Origin: Parvularia atlantis
Taxonomy: Eukaryota; Opisthokonta; Rotosphaerida
DNA length: 21,545 bases
NCBI GenBank assembly: GCA_943704415.1
Contig: CALSCO010002139.1
Location: forward strand, 1 to 21,545
Reading direction: 5' to 3'
Shown: in pieces, positions 3,354 to 21,248 of the stretch
Layout of the letters: every line of letters starts with the position of its first letter
Numbering within the stretch: position 1 is the first letter of the stretch
The notes under the pieces: generated by a model
The model's database searches: none
The model's input: only the letters and a program-made list of their open reading frames with translations
What the model was told of the DNA's origin: nothing
Program-made: the position numbers and the translations under genes

Positions 3354-4179
3354 ATGGCCGCGACGGCCGACGTGCCGGAGGAGCTCGCCGAGCCCGTGGC
3401 CGAGCTGCAGCAGCGCCTGGACGACGTCCGCGCCGAGCTCGCGCCGCTGCTGGCGGCCGACAACCAGCGGCTGCTCGAGACGCTCGGCCCGCTCGAGCGC
3501 GCCAAGATGGAGGTCGCCGTGGCCAGCGCCGTCGTGTCGCTGCTGCAGAGTGCGTTGCGCAGCGGGCACACACGAATGCAGGCGCTGACGGTGCCGCTCC
3601 CCGCAGTCTTCCTGCGCGCACAGGGCGTGAGCTTGGCCGACCACCCGCTGCGGAACGAGACGGTGCGGCCGCGGCGCCCTGACTTGCGCGCGCCCTTTGA
3701 CAGGTCGCGCCAGGAGCGCATCCGGCTGTACGTGAGCAAGCTGCGGCAGCACGAGCCCGCCGACAGCGAGGACGGCAAGTCGAAGGCTAAGAACGCCAAG
3801 CTCGCGAAGCGCATGGTGCAGAACGCGCTCTTTGACGTCGAGCAGGCGCAGGCGCGCAAGCGGCCAGGTGCGCCCCCGCTGCGGCGCTGCTGCTGCTGCC
3901 GTATCAGCTGATCTTGCGGCATCGTTGCAGCCGCCGAGGACGCGGCCGCCGCGCCGGGCGACGATGCGGCCGAGGACGCGGGCGAGCCGAAGCCCAAGAA
4001 GCTGAAGAAGAAAAAGAAGGCCGCGCCGGCCGACTATGCCGCGGGCGATGCTGCGGGCGGTGTGCTCCGGCGATCGCTCTGCGCTCACGCGGCGTGCTGA
4101 TCGGCGCCGCATAGATGACGACGCCGCCGCGCCGCCGCGCAAGAAGAAGAGCAAGAAGGAGAAGAAGGCCGAGAGTTAG
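3354..4179 (+). CDS. C1D: C1D/Lrp1 (Rrp47)-like nuclear exosome cofactor
   Basis: C1D proteins bind the exosome nuclease Rrp6 and nucleic acid, and help process rRNA and snoRNA in the nucleus. Five exons (3354-3549, 3607-3662, 3714-3867, 3931-4059, 4115-4179) encode 199 residues. A Sas10/Utp3/C1D helical domain fills about residues 10-110, with LLETLGPLERAKMEVA, FLRAQGVSLADHPLRNE, ERIRLYVSKLRQ and AKRMVQNALFD in family order. The second intron is placed at 3663-3713 because it yields NETERIRLYV, which fits the family better than reading through. The C-terminus is an Ala/Asp-rich spacer with two lysine blocks, typical of the basic tail that binds nucleic acid and carries nuclear localisation. 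The TAG stop is at 4177. It is the tandem upstream neighbour of the RasGEF. Confidence 0.92.
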
Positions 4180-4573: not shown

Positions 4574-7500
4574 ATGTCCTCCACGAGCTCAAACGGCACG
4601 GCCAACCCGCTGGCCGCGGCGCTCGAGGACGCCAAGGGCCAGCTGGTCGTGCGCCTCAAGCACCTGAGCCAGCTCACGACGGCCGAGAACTTTGGCGCCT
4701 GCGTCGCGGCCGCCGATGCGATGTGAGTCCGCGCGCGCGCCGCGCCGTTTTGCACACGTGAACGCGGCTGAACGGGCCACCCGCGCACCAGCGACGCCGC
4801 CAACGAGGTGTTCGTGGGCGCGGCGCGGCGCATCGTCAAGGGCGCGGACCCGGACACGGTGACGACGGTCAAGGGCGCGCTCAACGCGATGGTCTCGCAG
4901 GCGGGGCAGCTCAAGCAGACGTGCAGGGTGCGAGCGCCCGTCTGCCCGTCGTGCCAAGTCACACGCGTGACACGTGCGCCACGCAGCACGCTGCCATCAA
5001 CAACACCTTCGCCGAGTCGGTCGAGAACGTCAAGCTCGTCACGGTCAACCTGGCCAAGAGCCTGCAGCTGGTGATGCAGACCCTCAGCCCGCTCCTGGTC
5101 TCGTCCCCCGTCGGCTCGCCCACCACGACGCCCCAGCGCGTCCTCTCGCCCAGCCTGCCGTCCAGCTCGTCGTTCGATAGCCTGCGCGTGCGCGCGTCCA
5201 CGCCGGGCCTGGCCGTGCCGATCGTGCGTGACGCGAGCGGCGGTCGTCGGTGTCTGACTTATGCGCGCAGGTCAAGCGTACGTCGCTGCTCACGGCGCCC
5301 GAAATGAAGGCGCTCCTGCCGGTGCGTGCGGGCGCGGGTCGTGTCTGCTCGTGTCGTGCGGGGAGTCCTGACGCGCGCGTCAACAGGTCCAGTTCCAGTT
5401 TGACCAGTTCAACATGTACCTGAGCGACATCATCAACGGCGCCGACCAGCTCACGACGTACGTCAACCACCACCAGACCGAGATGTTCAAGATCACGACG
5501 GACGCCATCCTCGACAAGGTGCGCGCGCGTGTGCGGCACGGCCGTCGCGCGCCGCTGACAGAAAGTGCAACACAGGTCAACGAGTTCCTGACCGAGCTGG
5601 ACGACATCGACAACACGCCGCTCGACAGCCACTTCAAGAGCATGTTTGACCAGTCTGTGCGCAAGATCCGCAACCAGCGCGAGCGGCTCGCGCAGGCGGC
5701 CAAGCTGGCCACCGCCGTGGACCCGCTCGAAGGCACTGACAGCGACATGCTGTGCGTAGCGCCGCGAACGTGTGCCTGCGCTCGCATCCAGCTCACCTAA
5801 TCGCGCAGGTTCGAGGCCGTCAAGGTGGCCGGCGCGATGAAGGAGTTTATCGTCATGGTCGAACACCGCATGACGCTCGTCGTCCGGTTCAAGACGGCGC
5901 AGATGCAGGCCATGGTTGCGGCCGAGGCGAGTGCGCAGTCCTCGCCCACGTCCGCCACGCCCACCAGCACCGCGCCGCCGGCGCTGCCCTCGAACCATGC
6001 GCTCCCGCCGGTCGGCCCCGTCACACCGCCCTCGCCCAGCAACGAGGAGGCTGTGCGTGCGCGTCGCGGCGCGCTCGCGTCTCCTCCTCTCACGCACACA
6101 CGCACAGCATCACGTCATCGCGTCGAGTGCGACCGCGGTCGACCAGTCGCCGGAGGCCAACGAGCAGGACGCGCACGGTGCGGCGCGCGGCGGCGTGCGC
6201 ACATGCCCCGAGCTGACGCGCCCGCGCCTCGCAGACAGCAATGCGTACATGTCGAAGCGCAAGAGCGTGTTCCGGTGCGTGCCGCGCGCCGCTGCTGGCC
6301 GGACGTCGCGCGCTGACCAGCGCCGGGGCTGTGGCAGGAGCACGCTGTCCAAGGCGTCGGGCTTCCTCGGCGCCGCGACCAAGGCACGCGCGTCCATCCT
6401 GCCGTCGCTCTCGACCGCTGCGCCGCCGCCGGTCACGAAGGACCGCTCGTCCACGTTCTCGGACCCGGGTCTCGGGTCGCGCACGTCCTTCACGCCCGAG
6501 CCCGAAATGCCGCCCGCGCCGATCAGGTGCGTGCGCGGCCACGGCTGGCGCGCTCAGTCGGTCCCGCGCGAAGCCAACGGCGAGTGGCGCAGCCGGCAGC
6601 AGTCGTCCAGCTTCAACGAGTCGGACATCGAGAAGCAGCGCGCGCTCGAGAACGAGATCAACGAGCTCGAGACCAAGTACATCGTGCCGCCCAACGTTGT
6701 GTTCAAGGACGCCAACAGCAAGCTCGTCAAGTCGGGCAGGCACGTCCGCGGCGCTGTCGGCGCTGTCGGTGTGGGTGTATGTCTGACGCCGCCCGCGCGC
6801 ACAGCCTCGAGGGCCTGGTTGCGCTGCTGACGTCGCACCGGTACACGGACGTGTCGTTCATGACGTCGTTCCTCATGACCTACCGCTCGTTCACGGTCGC
6901 GGCTGAGCTGCTGGACGAGCTCTTCAGGCGGTTCGACATCCGCGTGCCCGACCCGCTCGGTGCGCGGCGCGCACGCCTGGGCCGCGCGCGCCGCTGACGC
7001 GCGCTCAGTGGATGAGGACAAGCGCGTTGTTTTTCAGAAGCACATCGTCAAGCCGGTGCAGACGCGTGTGCTCAACGTGCTCAAGCACTGGGTGCGGCCG
7101 CGCGCCGGTCCAGCCTGTGCGGGCGCTGACGCGAGCGCGGCCGCGCAGATCGACCGCCACTACTACGACTTCCGGGACACGATGCTGCTCGAGCGGCTGG
7201 AGAAGTTCATCAACGGCGACGCCAACAAGTGCTCGCCGCAGTTTGCCGATCTGCTCAGGAAACGACTGGCCGAGAAGCACTCGTCGCACCTGAAGGACGA
7301 GCGGGTGCGCCTGCCCGACCGACAAACGCGCACGAGGGCTGACGGGGCCGCGCAGCTTCGGCGCGAGCGCGACCTGTCGCAAGCGCCCGCAACGCTGCGC
7401 GTCTCCATCACGCCGCGCATGGAGATCTACGCCGTGGACGACCTGGAGGTCGCGCGGCAGCTGACGCGTGCGTTTGCCCTTGCCTGCGCGCACGTGCGTG

Positions 7501-8445
7501 TGCCCTGACCGGCCGCTGCGCAGTGATGACGTTCGACATGTATAGCGCCATTCAGCCCAAGGACCTGCTCGACCAGATCTCGGAGAGCGCGGCCGACCCG
7601 CAGAAGCAGCGCAACAGCGTCAACACGATGGCGCACTCGTTCAACACGCTGTCGGACTGGGTCGTGACCGAGATCGTCCGCGGTGCGTCCGCCTCTCGAC
7701 CGCCGCGATCGCCGCGCTGACGGCGTGCGCGCAGGCGAGACGGCCAAGGAGCGTGCGGGGCGCGTGGTGTACTGGATCAGCGTGAGCGAGCGGCTGCGCA
7801 TGCTGCAGAACTATGACTCAATGATGGCCATCAACGCGGCCATGAACAAGTCGTCGGTCCGGCGCCTGGCCAAGACGTGGGAGAAGGTGCCGCAGCACGT
7901 CGTGCGTCAGTTTGAGGAGGCAACGGTGGCGTGTGCGCCTGCTCAGCCAGCTCGGCCTTGCACGCTCAACACGGGCGCGCCCCGCGGCAGAACTTGCTCG
8001 ACAGCAAGGAGAACTACAGGGTGCTGCGGACGACGCTCAAGTCGCTCAATCCGCCATGCATCCCGTACCTGGGCATGTACAAGACCGACCTGCTGTTCAT
8101 CGAGGTGCGCGGGCTGGCCCAACCGGGGGCGCGCGCGCGCGCGCGACACGTACAGTGCTCACTCGCGCCGGCCGGCAGAGCGGCAACAAGAACAACGTCG
8201 ACGGCCTGATCAACTTTGACAAGCGGAGAAAGCTCGCGACGGTGATCAGCGACGTGCAGCAGTACCAGCAGGTGCGCAAGCGACTGTGCGCCCACGACGT
8301 CGCGCTGACGACGATCCCCTAGACGCACTACGCACTCCACGAGTACCCCGAGCTGCAGCGCTTCCTCATGGAGCAGCGCAAGAGCCTTCTGAACGAGGAC
8401 CAGGTGTACGACCTGTCGCTCAAGATGGAGCCGCGCTCGTCCTGA
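4574..8445 (+). CDS. Ras guanine nucleotide exchange factor (REM + CDC25-type RasGEF) with helical N-terminus
   Basis: The protein should load GTP onto a Ras-family GTPase. Twenty exons join in phase into about 918 residues. A RasGEF_N/REM module begins near residue 520 (VKSGSLEGLVALLTSHRY, FLMTYRSFTVAAELLDELF). The catalytic CDC25 domain occupies about residues 675-905, with DDLEVARQLT, MMAINAAMNKSSVRRLAKTW, PCIPYLGMYKTDLLFIE and LINFDKRRKLATVISDVQQY, all core family motifs. The first 330 or so residues are predicted long helices, faintly like vinculin/talin-type bundles but not identifiable. A Ser/Pro/Thr-rich linker (about 335-500) follows and is a likely phosphorylation target. I see no SH3, PH, DEP or cyclic-nucleotide domain. 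The intron at 6740-6804 is GC-AG. The ATG at 4574 is the first that opens the spliced frame. The gene ends 79 bp before the convergent GNAT stop. Confidence 0.92.
6740..6804 (+). other. GC-AG intron in the RasGEF gene (donor GCACGT)
   Basis: The exon ends ...GGCAG and the intron opens GCACGTCC, with a CTGAC branch site and a CACAG acceptor. Splicing here gives VKSGSLEGLVALLT, the expected start of a REM domain. The only nearby GT donor would drop two conserved residues. Confidence 0.75.
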
Positions 8446-8524: not shown

Positions 8525-9297
8525 TCACTGCGGCGTGAGCACCATGCCCCAGATCGGCACGGTCGCGTCGTTGGTCAGGTGCGTCTCGCTCACGACGCGA
8601 AACCCGATGCGCTCGTACAGCCGCACGTTCTTGGCCGTGTTGGTCATGAGGTAGACCGGCAGGGCGCGCTGCGCCAGCGACTGACGGACCATCTCGGCCA
8701 CGAGGCGCGAGCCGAGGCCCTGGCCCTGGCACTGCGGCGCCACGTCAGCGTCACGCGCGGCCGACTGCCACAGATGCACCTCAGGATCGACCGAGACCTC
8801 GCGGATGTACCACCAGCCGTCGCGCATGCCCTTCGTGTCGCGCGCGGTCACGGCGCCGGTGTCATCGCCGAGCACCTTGAGGCGGTAGAGCTGCGGCAGG
8901 GTCATGTGCAACGGCGCGAGGGCGAGGCCCGCGTGGATATGCGCCAGGAGCGACTCGGATGTGCATCCGCGGGGCCCGATCAGCGCCGCACTGCCGCAGC
9001 CGACGATGCAGCCCGTGTCGGGCGCGCGCAGGACGTGGTACTGCGCGCCGTCGTAGTGCGTCGCGAGCCACACGAGCCGCTGGAAGACCCACGTCAGCGG
9101 CGCGGTTCGCGTGGCCGCGTCCTCGAACACGTGCGCCCACACCAGGTACGGATGGAACGCCCTGCGGCGCACGCACGCGCCATGAGATGCACCGCGCACG
9201 CACACGGGGCGCCACACCGTGTCGTCAGCGCCACGACCTCGTCGAACCGCGCGTCGCCAAACGCGACCTCGCCGAGTCGCTCGTGCTCCGCTGCCAT
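8525..9297 (-). CDS. GNAT-family N-acetyltransferase
   Basis: This is a GCN5-related acetyltransferase that should move an acetyl group from acetyl-CoA to an amine; the substrate is unknown. Three exons (9297-9218, 9161-8780, 8731-8525) give 222 residues. The first intron joins ALTT to RAFHPYLVWAHVFED in phase. The second, 48 nt with a GTGCAT donor and CTGAC branch, is a multiple of three and has no stop. Removing it joins VSVDPE to CQGQGLGSRLVAEMV, rebuilding GNAT motif A with its acetyl-CoA pyrophosphate loop (Q-x-x-G-x-G). LMTNTAKNVRLYERIGF is motif B. The length and layout resemble small fungal and protist GNATs of broad specificity. It is divergent from MMADHC with 12 bp between the ATGs and convergent with the RasGEF. 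Confidence 0.88.
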
Positions 9298-9309
9298 CTG
9301 TCGATTGTC
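9298..9309. promoter_or_regulatory. 12-bp gap between divergent GNAT and MMADHC start codons
   Basis: Twelve bases separate the two ATGs, much like the 11-bp MTQ2/C1D gap. Each 5' UTR must overlap the other gene's first exon or be almost absent. The MMADHC start is the less certain of the two, because the family N-terminus is variable. Confidence 0.55.
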
Positions 9310-9938
9310 ATGCTACTCAAGCCGACGTTGCTCCCGGCGCCACCCGAGCTCGAGGCGTCGGCGCACCGCGCGCCCGACACGCTCCAGCGCGAGCTGCGGC
9401 GCGTGTTTCCGAGCCCTGCTGTCGACCTCGATCGCCTGCTCGTCGTGCCGACGTTCCAGCCCGCGCGATGCGACCTCGTGGGCCTCGGGCCCGCGCAGGA
9501 CGAGGAAAAGGACCGGCTGCTGGAGGAGGCACGCCCGTGCGCACGGCGCTGGGCCGATCGCCCCCCAGTTGAACGTGCACGCGCGCAGTTCATGCGCTGG
9601 GCCGAGCAGGTGCACGCGCGCCTGCACGCGCAGGGCCACTGGTGCGACTACACCGACCCGACGTCGGGCTACCCGGTGCGTTCGCGGGCGCAGGCCGTCG
9701 GCACGGCAGGCTGAGCCGGCGGCAGATGCACAGCGAGCGCGGGGCGTCGCCGTACCCGGATGTGCAGGGCACGCTGCACCTGCTCAAGTACGAGCACGTC
9801 AACACGGGCATGTGCAGCCTCGTGTCGCACCCGCGCTGGCGCACGCGGTGCTACCCGGCCACGCTCTTCACGACCGCGCCGCTCGAGGCACTTTGCGCGG
9901 CGATGGGCGTGCCTGCGCCCGGTGTCGATCACGGGTGA
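9310..9938 (+). CDS. MMADHC: MMADHC-like cobalamin (vitamin B12) trafficking protein
   Basis: MMADHC accepts cobalamin processed by MMACHC and directs it to cytosolic methionine synthase or mitochondrial methylmalonyl-CoA mutase. Three exons (9310-9528, 9589-9675, 9726-9938) give 172 residues. They align with the C-terminal conserved domain of the human protein: TLQRELRRVFP, RLLEEFMRWAEQVHARLHAQ, GHWCDYTDPTSGYP, LHLLKYEHVNTGMCSLV and ATLFTTAPLEALCAAMG. The first intron is GC-AG; removing it restores RLLEEFMRW without a gap. Human MMADHC has 296 residues, and the missing part is its N-terminal mitochondrial and linker region. This copy, as read, has no targeting sequence, which suggests a cytosolic role. 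Upstream exons beyond the GNAT gene seem unlikely given the 12-bp gap. The stop codon is part of a tandem repeat. Confidence 0.85.
9529..9588 (+). other. GC-AG intron in MMADHC (donor GCACGC)
   Basis: GAGGAG is followed by GCACGCCC and the acceptor is GCGCGCAG. The 60-nt intron is a multiple of three with no in-frame stop, so read-through would insert 20 residues. Removal makes the protein collinear with human MMADHC. No GT donor in the segment keeps phase. Confidence 0.65.
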
Positions 9939-11026: not shown

Positions 11027-14000
11027 ATGGGGTGCGCGGGATGTGTGACACGGCGCCTGCACACGCCAACCTCGCGCCCCTGTGGCGCCTCACCAGCGTG
11101 CCCAAGCTGTTCCGATGGCTGATGGAGCGGTACCCGCTCGCGAGCCAGCCGCTGCCGACCGAGGGCGCGTTCACAGGTGCGTGTGCGTGCGCGCCTGTGC
11201 GCAAACGGGCTGACACGCCGCGCCCGCAGTCGATAACATGTACCTCGACATGAACAACATCGTCCACCCGTGCTTCCACCCGGACGACGACAACGGCGTC
11301 GTGCGGCCCGAGCCGGCCATCTTTATGAGCATCTTCAACACTGTCGACCGTCTGCTCGACCTCGTCACGCCCGCCAAGGTGCTCTACCTCGCCGTCGACG
11401 GCGTCGCGCCCAAGGCCAAGGTCAACCAGCAGCGTGCGCGCCGCTTCCAGTCGGCGGCCGGGCGCGACGCCTCGGGCAACCCGCACAACCTGCCCGGTGC
11501 GTGCAGCAACCCCGCGCGCCTCAAGCTCACCCGCCGCCGCTGCGCCCGCCAGACTCCAACTGCATCACGCCGGGCACCGAGTTCATGACGCGTCTCGCCA
11601 CGCATCTGCGCTACTATGTCGGCCGGCAGGTGCGCCGCGCGCGTCCGCCACGCTGCTCGCGAGGCTCACGCACGCGCGTGTGTGCCGCAGGTGAGCGAGA
11701 GCCCGCGCTGGCGCAACCTGCGTGTGATCGTGTCCGGGCCGGACGTGCCCGGCGAGGGCGAGCACAAGATCATGGCGTACATCCGCTGGTTGCGCACGCA
11801 GCCCGGCTACGACGCCAACACGCGCCACTGCCTCTACGGCGCCGACGCCGACCTGATGCTGCTCGGGCTCATGAGCTACGAGCCGCACCTCGTCGTCCTG
11901 CGCGAGGTCTTCCGGCGCGGGCCCAAGCGGCACGACGCCGGCGACCGCAAGGGCTACGCTGTAGTGCACCTGAACGTGCTGCGTGACTACTTTGCGGTCG
12001 AGTTTGCGCCGACCATCGATGCGGTACAGCAGGACCTCGGCGCGCCTGCGTTGGCCTTCCCGGTCCACCGGCTCGTCGACGACCTCGCGGCGCTCAGCTG
12101 CCTCGTCGGCAACGACTTCTTGCCCAACTTCCCCTCGCTCTACATCCCGCACAACTCGATCGACGCCATCTGGCGCGCGTACGGCGCCGCCCTGTACGCC
12201 GCCCCAGGCCGGTTCATCCTCCAGCCGGACGGCTCCATCGACTGCGCGCAGCTGCACGCCGTCCTCGTCACGCTCGCGGCGCAGGAGGAAAGCTTCTTCC
12301 GCGGCGACACGGAGCGGGCGCCAGGCGAGGACGGCTCGCTAGGCGACGCGTTTGGCCGCCGCCGCCCGCGCGCACAGCAGGGCACCAGCCGGCACGGCAA
12401 CCGCGACAAGCGCGTATGTGCGGCAGTGCACGCGCCTTGCTGCTGCTCGCTGCTCACGCCGGCGTCGCAACAACAACAGCAGTTTGCGGAGGCCAAGCTG
12501 CTCCAGCAGCAGCAGGCCGAGCAGCACGCCAAGACGCAGCTCACGCGCTCGCAGTCAATCCTGTGGACGCTGCTGCGCAACTTTGCCTACTCTGCCAGCA
12601 CGGCGCTGCGCCTCCCCGCCGCGACGAGCCCCGCTGACCGGCAGTGGGTGCGCGAGCTCGCGGAGCAGCTCAACCTGGCCGTGAGCGAGGTGCGCGGTCC
12701 CACTCGCGCGCGCACGTGATACACTCTTACTGCCGGTGCGCCAGGTACCCACGGCCATCCGCGGCGAGACGTGCTTACTGCTCGCCAAGGACGACGTGGA
12801 CGACGACTTTGCCTTTGGCGCGCTCGGCGTGTACGAGGTCTTTGAGCAGTTTGAGCCGGTGCGTCGTTCGCCGGTGAGCGCGACATTTCGGTACCTGAGC
12901 ATGGGCGTGCGACAGATCGCTGAGATCAAGGACGACTGGGCGCTGCAGTACTATCTGAGCAAATTTGGTGCGCACGAGGTCGCGAGCGACGAGGAGCGCG
13001 CGCGCGTCGGCTGCGAGTGGCTCAAGGGCACGCTGCCGGCCTTTGCGCGCATACCGGCACGTCGTCTGACACCGGCGCCCCCCCCCTTAAGGCTTCCATT
13101 GGGTGCTGCGCTACTACCGTCAGCGCGTGCCGTCGTGGACGTGGAGCTACACGCACCACTATGCGCCGCTGCTGCGCGACGCCGCCCGCGCGTGCCTGCT
13201 CCTGCAGCAGCCGCAAGGCCAGGGCTTTCTTGCTTTTGACAGTGCGTACGCGGCTCTGTGTCCTAGTCGCGCCAGACCTGAGCACGCTTGCACGCGCAGA
13301 CGACAGCGGGGGGCCCCTGCTCCCGTTCGAGCAGCTGCTGTCGGTGCTTCCGTCGCAGAGCAGCGCGTGCGCGCATTCGCTGCGCAGCAGACGCAGGCAG
13401 CTGAGCGTGCACACACGGTAGACTCATCCCCGAGCCGCTGCGCCCGCTCATGCTCGACGCCGGCTCGCCCGTGATCGATTACTACCCGCGCCACTTTGGC
13501 ACCGACCTGAACGGCAAGATCAACTCGTACGAGGCCGTGGTGCGTGTCGCAAACGCAGTTCCGCCGCTGCGCCCGTACCCACGCGCGCCGTCACCAGGTG
13601 CTCATCCCCTTTGCCGACACGGCCGTGCTGCGCAAGGCCATGGCGCCGCTCATGGACAAGATCGACCCGGCCGACGCCGCGCGCAACACACGCGGCCGCA
13701 CGTACTACGTCACGCACAACCCGCACGGGCACGTGCCGGCGCCGGACGACGTCGTGGAGGACCTCGAACGCGTGCCCTTCCTGGCGATCGATGTAACGGT
13801 GTGCCGATCGCTGCTGCTGCGTTCTGCGTTTCTCTCGTGCGTGACCGGTGCGGGCGTAGATGGTCGACCAGGACTACGAGGCCGACCGGCCTGTTTACGG
13901 CCCCCTGCCGGCTGCCAAGGTGTGCGCGGCGCGGGCGCTGTGTGCGTCACTGACGCGCTTGTGCCGCCAGACCGGGCAGCAGGGCCCGGAGCAGATGGGC

Positions 14001-17000: not shown

Positions 17001-18204
17001 AGACGCTCGAGCTGTGGGCGAGCTACAGCACGCGCACCGACGAGGATCAGCCGCTCTTTGGCAAGAGCGCGTCGGCTACAGGCAGCCGCGGCAGTGCGTA
17101 CAAGAACGACGCCGACGATGAGGACATCTGGGACGCGCCGACGACGGTGCGATGCGCGGCCTTTGCGGATGCATGCCACGCGCTGAAGGCTGCTGTGGCG
17201 CAGCGGCCGACCTTCGCCAGCGTGCACATGCCGGCGGCGCCGGTGTTCATCAACCAGCCCGCGGCACCGCCACCGCAGACGGCCTACGCCGCGTTCGACA
17301 CCGCGGTGCCATCGGCGTATGCGTCTCCAGGCCGACCAGCAGTCGGCGCGGGAACGGCAGGAGCGCCGGCCGGTCGCGGTCGTGGTCGCGGTGGGGCGGG
17401 GCGCGGCAGCAGCGTGATGATGATGGAGCCGCCCGTTGCGGTGCGTGCTGTCTGCAGTTTGTGGTGGCTGCTGACTAGCGCGACAGTATGCCGCGCCTGC
17501 CCCGTACGCTGAGCCCGCGTTGTACTACGCGCCCGCACCGGTGTACCAGCCGCGCGCGCCCGCCACACCGACGCAGTACTGGCACGCGCGCAGCCCTGAG
17601 GCGCTGTGCCGCGCCCTGCTGACCAGGCGCACAGGTACAGCGGCGGCAGCCCCAGCGCTGGCTGGAGCCAGCCCACGGCGCCCGTCACGCCAAGCTACGC
17701 GCCCGTGCCGACGCCGCCGCAGCACTACCAGCCGCCGTACCAGCTCCAGGCGTACCCCGCGCCCGCGCCCGTCTGGCCGGCGTCGCCGCAGCCGCAGCAC
17801 GTCATGCCGCAGTTCTGGCCGAGCTACCCGGTGCGGCCCCCGCCCGGCCGTCGCTGAGCCGCATCGGCCTAACCCGCGGTCGCACAGGCGCAGCCGACGA
17901 CGCATCAGACGGTGGCGCAGTGGCTCATGCAGATCGGGTGGGTGCGCGCGACATGAGCGTTGTGCGGCGCGCTTATCCGGTGCGCAGCATGCCGCAGTAC
18001 GTTCAGGCGTTCATCTCGCAGGGCTTTGACGACATGCGCCTGCTGGCCGACATGTCCGACACCGAGGTCGAGCGCCTGTTTGGCGGTGCGTGCGTGTGCG
18101 GGGTGGTGCTGCGAGGCCCATGACACGGCCGCGGCGCAGTCATCGGCATCCCCGAGGGCCACCGCATGCAGCTCCGACGCTGCTTCAGCGACCTGCGGCA
18201 CTAG
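11027..18204 (+). CDS. XRN1: XRN1-type 5'-3' exoribonuclease with zinc-finger and SAM-containing tail
   Basis: XRN1 degrades decapped 5'-monophosphate RNA in the cytoplasm. About 39 exons join without a stop into about 1,676 residues; human XRN1 has 1,706. The first coding exon is only ATGGG, spliced to CGTGCCCAAG to rebuild the [15 protein letters not shown] start. Catalytic signatures are [53 protein letters not shown] and [36 protein letters not shown] and [15 protein letters not shown] follow. D1-like motifs ([29 protein letters not shown]) continue to about 15500. The short N-terminal loop and the absence of a CCHC knuckle favour XRN1 over XRN2. The tail is Pro/Gln-rich with two finger-like motifs and a SAM domain. 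Junctions around 14084-14180 and 14453-14570 are uncertain. A separate downstream gene cannot be excluded, but I found no convincing stop-start boundary. Confidence 0.8.
13028..13091 (+). other. GC-AG intron in XRN1 (donor GCACGC)
   Basis: AAGG is followed by GCACGCTG, a GTCTGAC branch site, a C-rich tract and a TTAAG acceptor. Splicing joins CEWLKG to [10 protein letters not shown], the conserved XRN helix. No GT donor nearby preserves the phase. Confidence 0.8.
15224..15276 (+). other. GC-AG intron in XRN1 (donor GCACGT)
   Basis: CAG is followed by GCACGTCC, with CCCTGAC 18 nt before the GCGCAG acceptor. It joins LRRASLSQ to [11 protein letters not shown] in phase 0; read-through meets an in-frame stop. 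Confidence 0.65.
15777..15828 (+). other. GC-AG intron in XRN1 (donor GCACGC)
   Basis: TGCAAG is followed by GCACGCAGG, with CTGCTGAC and an ACACAG acceptor. A GTGACA eight bases inside the intron gives the wrong phase. The GC donor joins AIECK to [11 protein letters not shown]. Confidence 0.6.
15984..16551 (+). other. Two zinc-finger-like motifs in the XRN1 tail
   Basis: The first motif (residues about 1152-1180) is [14 protein letters not shown] followed by LLRHLNKVH, with C-x3-C and H-x4-H spacing. The 47-nt intron at 16061-16107 is placed so that the last His is kept. The second (about 1281-1305) is [18 protein letters not shown] then SNAHF. It resembles the CHHC finger of GTSF1 and U11-48K in the CPFxxxH-x9-H core, but the final ligand would be His rather than Cys. 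A Pro/Gln/Ser/Gly-rich linker of about 100 residues separates them. CHHC fingers are known RNA binders, so an RNA-binding role here is inferred. Confidence 0.5.
17582..17634 (+). other. GC-AG intron in XRN1 tail (donor GCACGC)
   Basis: The exon ends TACTG and the intron opens GCACGCGC, with CTGCTGAC and CACAG. Phase 2 plus one base rebuilds TGG (Trp), linking TPTQYW to [10 protein letters not shown]. Confidence 0.65.
17888..18204 (+). other. C-terminal SAM domain of the XRN1 gene
   Basis: Three exons (17888-17937, 17988-18085, 18140-18204) encode a sterile alpha motif ending at the stop codon. [18 protein letters not shown] is followed by [19 protein letters not shown] and [18 protein letters not shown]. 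This matches the W-x4-G-x4-Y and LGI-x2-G-x-R family pattern. SAM domains form oligomers, and in Smaug bind RNA hairpins. Which applies here is unknown. Confidence 0.85.
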
Positions 18205-18237: not shown

Positions 18238-21200
18238 TCATGCCAGGGCGCGGTACACCTCGATCAGCAGGTTGGGGAAGCGCGCCGGGTCGAGGAAGTA
18301 GTCTAGCACGGCGCGCTGCCGGCGCTCGTCCGTGAGCGACTCGGCGTCGGTGCTCGTCGCCTCCAGCACAGCCCGCACAAACTCGGCCGGTCGGTCCTTG
18401 AAGTGTTGGCTGGTGTTGCGGACCGCGCGCAGCAGGTCCTGCACCGAGCCGGAGCGGTACGTGCGGTGCCGCGCGAGCTCGGCCGCGACGACGGCGTGCA
18501 GCCGCTCGGTCCAAGGCGACGAAAACACGCGCTGCGCCACCGCGAGCTCGAGGGCACTGCCGCGCTCGCCGGGCAGGTCGCTCGCACGCTCGAGGAACGC
18601 GAGGCGCCGCGCCGCCGGCCAAAATAGCGGGTGGTCAAGTGCCTTGGCGGGCGTGGCGCGCGCCGTTGCGTCGACGTGCACCAGGCGGCTCACCAAGTCC
18701 GCGGCCTCGGCCGACGCGGCCGACACGGTGTGCGGCCAGAGCTGCGTCAGGCGCGCGCGCCCGCGGAGGATGTTGATCTGCGTCTCGGCTGTGGTCGCAC
18801 CGTCGAACGGGTGGCGTCCACGCGTGAGCACGTAGAACGCGATGCAGCCCGCGGCGAACGCGTCCGCCGCCTTGGCCGTGACGATGTCGGGCGAGAGCGT
18901 GCGCGGCAGGAGCACCTCGGGGCCAAGGAAGACGCTGCCATGTCGCCCGCCGACATGGCCAAAGGTGAGCGCGATCGAGGCGAAGTCGGCCTTGCGCGCC
19001 AGGCCCAGGTTGGCGATCTTGAGCGTTACCGAACGCGCGCCGATAAGCACGTTGTCCGGCTGGAGGTCGCTGTGGGCAATGCCGTGCTCGTGCAGGAACG
19101 TGAGACCGTCGAGCAGCTCGCGCACGAGCCGCACGTGGTCCATCAGCGCGTCTGCGCCGTCCGCGGTTGCCCGGCCGCTCCAGGCGGGTTGCTGCGCCAC
19201 CCAGTCCGTGAGCGAGTGCGAGCACATCTCCTCGGCCAAGTACAGGAACTGCGCGTCGACCTCGGACCCAAAATAGCGCACAATGTTTGGGTGGGCCCAG
19301 TCCTCGGACGCAGCGATGAGCAGGGCCACCTCACGCTCGGCCAGCGCACCCATGTCGCGCGGCACGCGCTTGATCGCCGCCGCGCGCTGCTCGTATTTGC
19401 CCGCAAACACGAGCGCGCCAAACGTGCCGTGGCCCAGCAGCAGGCCCGGGAACAGCTCGATTTTGCCAAGGCGCACTGGTGCGCTCTCGCCGTCCTCGCC
19501 GTCGCCACTCAGGATCGCCTCGGCCGCGGCGACGCTGACGTGGTCAATCGAGTCGCTGCTGCCGTCGCGCGAGCAGGCGTCGCTGGTCTCGGCCGGCGCG
19601 AGGCTGTTGCTGCTGAGGTCGCTGCTCGAGCCGGCGGGCAACGAGAGCGGCGGCGCCGATGCGCTCGCGTGTGACTGGCGCTTGGCCTGGTAGCGCTCGC
19701 GCTTGTGCCGCCGGCGCAGCAGCTGCTGCACGTTGCGCCGCGCGACCGGTGCAAGGCGCTGCAGCAGGTCGAGCACGTCCACGTGCGCGCGAGCGGCCGC
19801 CCAGGCTGCGGGCGTTCGTCCGTCCACATCGGCCGCGTCGACGATCGAGCCGGCCTCGACGAGCATGCGCACGACCTCGAGGTGGCCTGCACGCGCCCAA
19901 GGTCTGAGCATCGCACGGGTGCGCAGCAGGACGGGCCGGGCGCGCCTTCCGCCGCGGCAAAGTGCAGCGCGCTGGCCTTGAAGCGGTCCGTGGCGACGAC
20001 GGCCGAGCGCGCCTCCGGTGCAGCCAGCAGGACCTCGACAACGGCGCGGTGGCCCTTGTGCGCGGCGATGTGCAGCGGGAGGAGGCCGTTGTCGTCGACG
20101 AAGAGGGACGGGTCGCAGCGGGCGTCGACGAGGCGGGTGTCGGTGAGGATGCGCACGACCTCGGCGTGGCCCATACTCGCGGCGATGTGCACCGCGCACG
20201 CGCCCTGCTGGTTGCGCTGCTCCGCGTCCGAGCACGCCTCGAGCAGGGCCGTCACGACGTCGCTGCGCCCGCTCAGCGCGGCCAGGTGCAGCGGGCGGTT
20301 GCCCTGCAGGTTGGCGCTCGTCACGTCGGCCTCCTTCGACAGCAGATACTGCACCACGTCGACGTGGCCCGCTAGACATGCGCGGTGCAGCGGCGTCTGC
20401 GGTCGCCGGTGAGTGTGTGTGTGTGTGTGTGTGCCAGTGCCACAAGGAGAGGGGGGCCAGCAGCGCGCACATCCTCGTTGCGGTCGTCACGCGCGTCAAC
20501 ACCCGGGCCCTTGCTCGTCACCGCCGTCATGAGCGCGCGGCACAGCTCGACCGAGCCGCGCTCTGGCGAGTTGCACGTCAACACAAGATGCTGCAGCGAG
20601 CAGCGAGCGCACACCGGCAGCGAGGTGCAGCACCGTCTGGCCGTTGAGCCGCTTGCGCACTACACGCGGCGTCTCAGCGCGCGACCACACGGGCCAGCAG
20701 GCGCACCGTCGACGCGCTGTGCGAGCAGCTGCGTCACGCACGCGACGCTGCCGCTCATCACGGCCAGGTGCAGCGCGGTCGCGCCGCCGGGCGCCTCGGC
20801 GTCGATGCGGCCGCCCTGCTGCGCCGCGAGCAGCTCCGCCAGGATCGCGTCGAGCCCGAGCTCGCACGCGAGGTGCACGGGCGTGACGGTCCGGGCCGGC
20901 GCGGCGCGCGGCGTGCCGAGGCGCTTGAGCGTCGTGACGAGCACGCGCACGGCGCCGGCGTTGGCGGCTTGCACTGCGTCCGTCGCCATCAGCCGTCCGT
21001 GCGGTGGGCGATCGGCGCGCACCTGCGCTGTGCAGCGGCGTGCGGCCGTCGTCGTCGACCTGCGCGGCCGCGGCGGGGCATCGCGCGAGGCACGCCGCCA
21101 GGAAGCGCAGATCCGGCAGGGCCGCCGCGGCCATCGCGGCCTGCCCCGCCGCGCGCACGGCGTCGCTGCTGCCCGCGCGCCCCGCCGTGGCCCGCTCGAG

Positions 21201-21248
21201 CTCGTACGCGAAGCGAGCGAGGTCCGCGTCGGCAATCGCGCTGAGCAT
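18238..21248 (-). CDS. Ankyrin repeat / pseudokinase-like / KEN endoribonuclease (RNase L-like domain order)
   Basis: Six exons (21248-21023, 20973-20707, 20659-20615, 20562-20471, 20396-19946, 19886-18238) give 909 residues. About ten ankyrin repeats cover residues 65-405 (for example GNRPLHLAALSGRSDVV). A basic, Ser-rich linker follows. The kinase-like domain (about 505-780) keeps GHGTFG, the lysine in AAAIKRV and NIVRYFGSE, but has HSDLQPDN for HRDLKxxN and NLG for DFG. The KEN domain (about 783-909) has SVQDLLRAVRNTSQHF, with the Arg and His catalytic positions shared by IRE1 and RNase L, and ends RFPNLLIEVYRAL. There is no signal peptide or transmembrane helix, unlike IRE1, so it should be cytosolic. 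Vertebrate RNase L has this order and binds 2-5A through its ankyrin repeats; the ligand here is unknown. One intron appears to be GC-AG. Confidence 0.92.
19887..19945 (-). other. GC-AG intron in the KEN gene (donor GCGCGC)
   Basis: On the minus strand GGAAG is followed by GCGCGCCC, with acceptor GCGTGCAG. The phase-1 join gives FAAAEGHLEVVRML, a continuous ankyrin repeat. The two GT sites inside give the wrong phase. Its donor is the usual GTGCGC with T to C at position 2, unlike the other six GC donors. Confidence 0.65.
20413..20433. repeat. GT/CA dinucleotide microsatellite in a KEN gene intron
   Basis: About ten GT units lie within the 74-nt intron 20470-20397. On the transcribed strand the run is CA-rich and lies between the donor GTGCGC and the acceptor CCGCAG, so length changes would alter the branch-to-acceptor layout. 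Confidence 0.9.

Follow-up and report, generated by a model that had tools for sequence, protein, structure and literature searches.

A predicted soluble ankyrin-pseudokinase-KEN protein with the domain order of RNase L in Parvularia atlantis

Contig CALSCO010002139.1 of the Parvularia atlantis assembly GCA_943704415.1, analysed here in its entirety (21,545 nucleotides; hereafter the window), encodes on its minus strand a protein of 909 residues in which ten ankyrin repeats are followed by a kinase-like domain and a KEN RNase domain. The gene occupies positions 18238..21248, and the protein is referred to as AKK, for ANK-pseudokinase-KEN. Our preferred reading, to which we assign a probability of about 0.6, is that AKK is a soluble pseudokinase-RNase of the IRE family equipped with an ankyrin sensor, which became RNase L-like by convergence and which responds to an activator other than 2′,5′-oligoadenylate (2-5A). 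This architecture most probably arose twice, because the enzyme part of AKK is nearer to IRE1 than to RNase L, and the contacts by which RNase L recognises its messenger were not found in AKK.

Domains of AKK and their similarity to IRE1

Profile searches with the spliced AKK sequence detected Ank_2 (E 3.9e-62, in five stretches), Pkinase (4.3e-31) and the KEN family Ribonuc_2-5A, PF06479 (2.1e-15), all above the curated Pfam cut-offs. The unspliced open frames matched the same families on their own (Ank_2 1.9e-33, Pkinase 3.2e-31, KEN 1.5e-15), so the domain calls are independent of the splice choices. Ten repeats, in addition to an N-terminal cap, cover residues 65-407 (19747..21056), with repeat boundaries set by hand. 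A linker of residues 408-500 (19468..19746) leads to the kinase-like domain at residues 501-783 (18619..19467), and the KEN domain occupies residues 784-909 (18241..18618), all on the minus strand. An earlier note, made from the DNA sequence, had described this domain order as that of RNase L, and the profile matches bear it out. The position, strand, length and number of repeats that it gave were reproduced by splicing, Pfam and a hand count, and the non-vertebrate setting that it described holds as well. Also in agreement with the note, no membrane-like segment was found in AKK, the highest 19-residue Kyte-Doolittle mean being 1.58, whereas the membrane segment of the IRE1 from this genome reaches 2.41; the soluble character is thereby judged by hydropathy, and not by a dedicated signal-peptide predictor. 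A search of the kinase-KEN part against NCBIfam returned eight bacterial kinase families, each far under its own cut-off.

The kinase-like domain retains the beta-3 Lys of the ATP site (Lys533). Its catalytic loop reads HSDLQPDN (19051..19074), compared with HRD(L/V)KPxN in IRE1s and HRDVKPQN in the IRE1 of this genome, ANLG replaces DFG (19003..19014), and alignment with the IRE1s revealed no activation-loop motif similar to SSFRT. The corresponding motifs of RNase L are HQDLQPQN and DFD. Passages of PMC4718504 describe RNase L as a pseudokinase that binds ATP, and ATP binding as helpful to the nuclease activity. Similar to RNase L, the kinase of AKK is predicted to be a pseudokinase, a likeness that the earlier note had missed. 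The Tyr of KEN domains has a catalytic role, and AKK keeps it (Tyr837), together with Arg850, Asn851 and His855 of the segment RNTSQH (18403..18420), which aligns with RNKKHH of human IRE1. According to passages of PMC3710099, the KEN His and Arg are required, and the polar residue following the Arg contributes. The KEN domain of AKK is predicted to be an active nuclease.

The genome also possesses a second gene of this type, likewise absent from the earlier note. A search of the 16.25-Mb assembly with PF06479 returned three places, one in the AKK gene and the other two in separate exons of a single gene on contig C36 (1062-3520, minus strand). The partly spliced product of the latter contains a membrane segment, HRDVKPQN, DFG, an activation loop with SSFRT, and the motif RNKKHH in a KEN domain matched at 2.7e-42. 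By these sequence features, it is a normal membrane IRE1 that coexists with AKK in the genome. The genome also encodes RtcB, which in animals performs the ligation step of IRE1-dependent splicing. An open frame at the start of contig C36 resembles, by eye, ribosomal protein S3.

The kinase-KEN part of AKK is 37.9% identical to that of the IRE1 of its own genome, 36.5% to human IRE1 and 34.2% to yeast IRE1, and 23.8% to human as well as to pig RNase L. The three IRE1s share 45-47% identity with each other, and RNase L and IRE1 share 23-26%. BLASTP with the same part gave E values of 2e-66 for human, 2e-64 for yeast and 2e-57 for the own IRE1, and of 4e-17 for pig and 3e-14 for human RNase L. 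The top 16 chains of a PDB search were all IRE1, and RNase L was absent from the best 60 of 273 matches. The KEN domain alone, in a query whose first two letters were transposed, matched human IRE1 at 3.4e-9, with no RNase L in 18 matches at E up to 1. RNase L has lost a large part of the activation segment and of the sequence following it, a region that AKK retains, and the loop preceding the catalytic KEN motif has the length found in IRE1.

Sensing and control

According to passages of PMC5927464, 2-5A is bound in human RNase L by W60 and K89, both in repeat 2, and by residues in repeats 4 and 9, and the mutants reported include F126, E131, R155, R309 and H311. The slot of W60 and F126 is the residue directly before the TPLH motif of a repeat, and that of E131 is four residues after the first position of the motif. 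At the slots of these three positions (W60, F126 and E131), none of the ten AKK repeats has the aromatic residue (0/10) and none has the Glu (0/10). A search of the genome for OAS and other nucleotide cyclases, which the earlier note had suggested, gave no match to OAS1_C (PF10421) or Mab-21 (PF03281), both searched without a positive control, and none to SMODS (PF18144), for which controls were detected in 3/14; this is a weak test, and divergent genes can escape such an exon-by-exon search. Passages of PMC6307210 place OAS at the beginning of animals and report that RNase L was not found in four sponges and eight other lower metazoans. Because the contact slots are not conserved, OAS-type domains were not found and RNase L and OAS are distributed in this way, it is unlikely that AKK is driven by 2-5A.

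In the mechanism that we propose, the ankyrin repeats would take the place of the endoplasmic reticulum-lumenal and membrane parts of IRE1. The ankyrin stack would bind a cytosolic cue, which may be a partner protein or a small ligand, and not 2-5A in the manner of RNase L. This cue would bring two pseudokinase-KEN units together in a back-to-back arrangement, a nucleotide occupying the pocket of the retained Lys533, and RNA cleavage by the paired KEN domains would follow. With its degenerate catalytic loop and DFG position, AKK would be expected to be controlled by ligand and dimerisation, and not by trans-autophosphorylation. Such a mechanism would be that of RNase L, a likeness most probably due to convergence.

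The usual view of RNase L is that of an antiviral innovation of vertebrates, linked to 2-5A and interferon. A more far-reaching proposal, which we consider possible and put forward tentatively, is that this protist independently derived from its IRE1 an RNase L-type ligand-gated RNA-decay sensor, composed of an ankyrin receptor, a dead kinase as dimerisation scaffold and a live KEN nuclease domain. The cue would be a messenger other than 2-5A, or infection, and AKK would be a cytosolic stress or antiviral switch outside animals. If this is true, soluble sensor-nucleases could evolve from IRE1 more than once, with death of the kinase accompanying the change, and AKK would point to a cytosolic signal in protists.

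The main functional alternative to a sensor is a soluble paralogue of IRE1 whose ankyrin repeats serve only to localise the enzyme or to hold a fixed partner, AKK being then a housekeeping RNA-decay factor that senses neither signal nor ligand. Ankyrin repeats usually bind proteins, and the kinase-KEN part is similar to IRE1, both of which would fit such a paralogue. The genome is also rich in ankyrin-like places, with 38 at E <= 0.001, of which five are pieces of AKK itself, and the best-scoring others are 38-45% identical. Since such places are common, local recruitment of the ankyrins of AKK is plausible. The sequence fits sensing as well as scaffolding; however, the degenerate kinase motifs suggest an altered mode of control, and we regard a purely scaffolding role as unlikely.

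Ancestry and integrity of the gene

Several results weigh against the convergent reading, and part of them would fit the descent of AKK and vertebrate RNase L from a pre-animal ANK-kinase-KEN protein that was lost in most other lineages. The domain order of the two is identical. In both, the Arg of HRD is gone, the Lys of the catalytic loop is replaced by Gln and DFG is no longer normal; the Gln common to their HxDLQPxN could represent a synapomorphy. Their ankyrin regions align at E 1e-10, as ankyrin repeats generally tend to. The best unrooted tree of six kinase-KEN sequences (IQ-TREE, 380 columns) puts AKK, weakly, beside RNase L and outside the three IRE1s (approximate likelihood-ratio test 83, ultrafast bootstrap 66), and the approximately unbiased test rejected one of eight topologies and did not reject shared ancestry of AKK and RNase L. 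The comparison of 2-5A contacts covered only the three positions W60, F126 and E131, and in mouse RNase L, according to passages of PMC5927464, E131A, like H311A and R155A, has only a partial effect, and R309A none. The KEN domain of AKK matches its profile at 57 bits, compared with 144 bits for the own IRE1, and its C-terminus is shorter; given these differences, the nuclease activity of AKK may be reduced. A single-sequence AlphaFold2 model of the kinase-KEN stretch was a failed prediction (mean predicted local distance difference test score 35.7).

Nonetheless, common descent with RNase L appears quite improbable. The identity between AKK and RNase L is no higher than that between RNase L and IRE1, AKK has the kinase region that is deleted in RNase L, and the 2-5A contact positions that were compared show no conservation. 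The report that sponges and other lower metazoans lack a detectable RNase L, with OAS present from the start of animals (PMC6307210, in the passages cited above), also argues against it. The RNase L branch measures 1.93 substitutions per site, and long-branch attraction would yield the same tree. An unrooted split of six sequences cannot tell a sister of RNase L from a sister of the IRE1s. Because the branch is very long and the unrooted split amounts to AKK lying outside the three sampled IRE1s, we do not read the split as kinship. The earlier note had named a firm placement within the IRE1s of close relatives as evidence that would speak against its proposal; AKK was not placed there, and its placement was firm nowhere. 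The note had offered two explanations, an architecture older than vertebrate RNase L or a repeated joining of KEN kinases to ankyrin sensors. The second is better supported, by the IRE1-type similarity, the kept kinase region and the unconserved 2-5A slots, and the first less so.

The AKK gene consists of six exons on the minus strand. Exon 1 (21023..21248) encodes the N-terminus, the ankyrin cap and the start of repeat 1, exon 2 (20707..20973) repeats 1-3, exon 3 (20615..20659) the end of repeat 3 and the start of repeat 4, exon 4 (20471..20562) the remainder of repeat 4 and the initial residues of repeat 5, and exon 5 (19946..20396) repeats 5-9, the last of them partially. Exon 6 (18238..19886) is a single open frame with the remainder of repeat 9, repeat 10, the linker, the kinase-like domain, the KEN domain and the stop codon. 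The five introns measure 49, 47, 52, 74 and 59 nt, four of them GT-AG and one GC-AG, and were positioned by hand from the DNA, as were those of the own IRE1 gene. Three of the five have the donor GTGCG, which is also the donor of the nine introns (49-61 nt; 9/9) in the partly spliced IRE1 gene. Intron 4 (20397-20470), the longest with 74 nt, contains a CA dinucleotide run. A 63-nt in-frame stretch with intron-like ends within the KEN domain (18316..18378) is a possible sixth, in-frame intron, and the KEN score is 63.6 bits with the stretch translated vs 64.5 bits without it. An in-frame stop lies within the 297 bases that the contig extends upstream of the ATG; despite the stop, an additional 5′ exon past the contig end is, strictly speaking, conceivable.

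The fusion of ankyrin repeats to a kinase and a KEN domain is unlikely to be an accident of the gene model, because repeat 10 and the kinase-KEN part lie in one exon and one frame, and no Met is present between residue 368, in repeat 9, and residue 539, past Lys533, the linker included. A separate kinase-KEN protein therefore could not begin with a complete kinase. The GC content at third codon positions (GC3) is 0.82-1.00 in 23/23 blocks of the coding sequence, which has no internal stops. In the linker, the coding frame has a GC3 of 0.92; for the other two frames, each interrupted by a single stop, the values are 0.70 and 0.59. Hand-placed introns and a divergent, short KEN domain could point to an artefact or a decaying gene (two neighbouring genes, a misassembly or a pseudogene). 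However, the frame is unbroken over the junction, the introns are in the same length class as those of the own IRE1 and partly share their donor, and the KEN catalytic residues are retained, which makes such an origin very improbable. Horizontal acquisition of a vertebrate RNase L, which has the domain order in its favour, is extremely improbable, as AKK is nearer to IRE1 in sequence, has short introns resembling those in the IRE1 gene of this genome, and has high GC3.

Genomic surroundings and comparison with known systems

The window has a GC content of 0.64-0.73. The convergent neighbour of AKK, at 17989-18204 (+), has a SAM-like match (SAM_1 7.2e-05, barely above the cut-off), and its stop lies, by eye, about 33 bases from the AKK stop. 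An XRN-type 5′-3′ exoribonuclease is encoded at 11616-12719 (+; XRN_N 4.5e-29, XRN_M 7.3e-12), and its placement on the same contig as AKK is probably unrelated. The window also harbours a gene with a RasGEF domain at 6960-8219 (+; RasGEF 4.1e-17, RasGEF_N under the cut-off) and a V-ATPase subunit E fragment at 1872-2522 (+; 8.4e-08). A GNAT acetyltransferase frame at 8525-9217 (-) and an MMADHC frame at 8959-9714 (+; 1.9e-08) overlap as open frames, but not in their domain matches. A weak Sas10/Utp3 match at 3354-3911 (+; 2.3e-04) is under the cut-off.

The assembly also contains a mitochondrial contig of 13 kb, C530, which has a bacterial-type small-subunit rRNA and tRNAs and is AT-rich by eye, compared with the GC-rich window. 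Genes named by eye from its translations are ccmC, rps3, rps13, nad3, nad6 and cox1. Unless C530 derives from a companion organism, its gene content is that expected of a protist rather than of an animal or a fungus. In passages of PMC10749196, ccmC is present in two Malawimonas mitochondrial DNAs and is not listed for Ancyromonas sigmoides.

Collections outside this genome were searched with alignment queries. In the viral contig collection, the kinase-KEN query gave 13 confirmed loci out of 100 pattern matches, covering query residues 15-237 of 417, which is the kinase part, and the KEN query gave none confirmed out of 17. In the genome contig collection, 38/62 matches to the kinase-KEN query were confirmed, all in bacterial metagenome-assembled genomes by title and over query residues 1-299, essentially kinase. 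The phage collection gave one weak match (24.9% identity, E 2e-6). These viral, genome-contig and phage matches carry no information on protists.

At the level of titles, abstracts and passages of the open literature, no description of an ankyrin-KEN protein outside vertebrates was found, save for an entry on the KEN/HEPN RNase superfamily in Table 1 of PMC3710099. There, the ankyrin form is recorded as a KEN-kinase fusion 'along with ankyrin repeats, CCCH in some', and the passages of that paper name no non-vertebrate species that has it. Soluble IRE-family proteins are already known from Dictyostelium, for which passages of PMC1420674 describe seven IRE-family kinases with RNase domains, only IreA appearing membrane-bound. 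Similar to AKK, the soluble members combine an IRE-family kinase with an RNase domain and have no apparent membrane segment. The word ankyrin is absent from the main text of that paper.

With the human, yeast and own IRE1s, AKK shares a kinase-KEN part that is 34-38% identical, the KEN catalytic residues and a loop of equal length before the catalytic motif. It differs from them in having ankyrin repeats, and no membrane segment that could be found, instead of a lumenal domain and a membrane segment. HRD and DFG are intact in IRE1 and degenerate in AKK, the activation-loop Ser/Thr motif is not conserved in AKK, and its KEN tail is shorter.

With RNase L (PDB 4oau, human, and 4o1o, pig), AKK shares the order of ankyrin repeats, kinase-like domain and KEN domain, and the lack of a membrane segment. 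The kinase motifs are degenerate in both, and both retain the ATP-site Lys. The KEN Arg, Asn and His of AKK are also retained in the pig record, whereas the human record has Asn at the His position. The differences lie in the kinase-KEN sequence, which is about 24% identical, in the activation-segment region, which RNase L lacks and AKK possesses, and in the aromatic residues at W60 and F126 and the Glu at E131, which have no counterpart at these slots in the AKK repeats. The native human enzyme presumably has the KEN His. With these likenesses and differences, AKK is a natural comparison for identifying which features of RNase L ligand-gated RNA decay needs.

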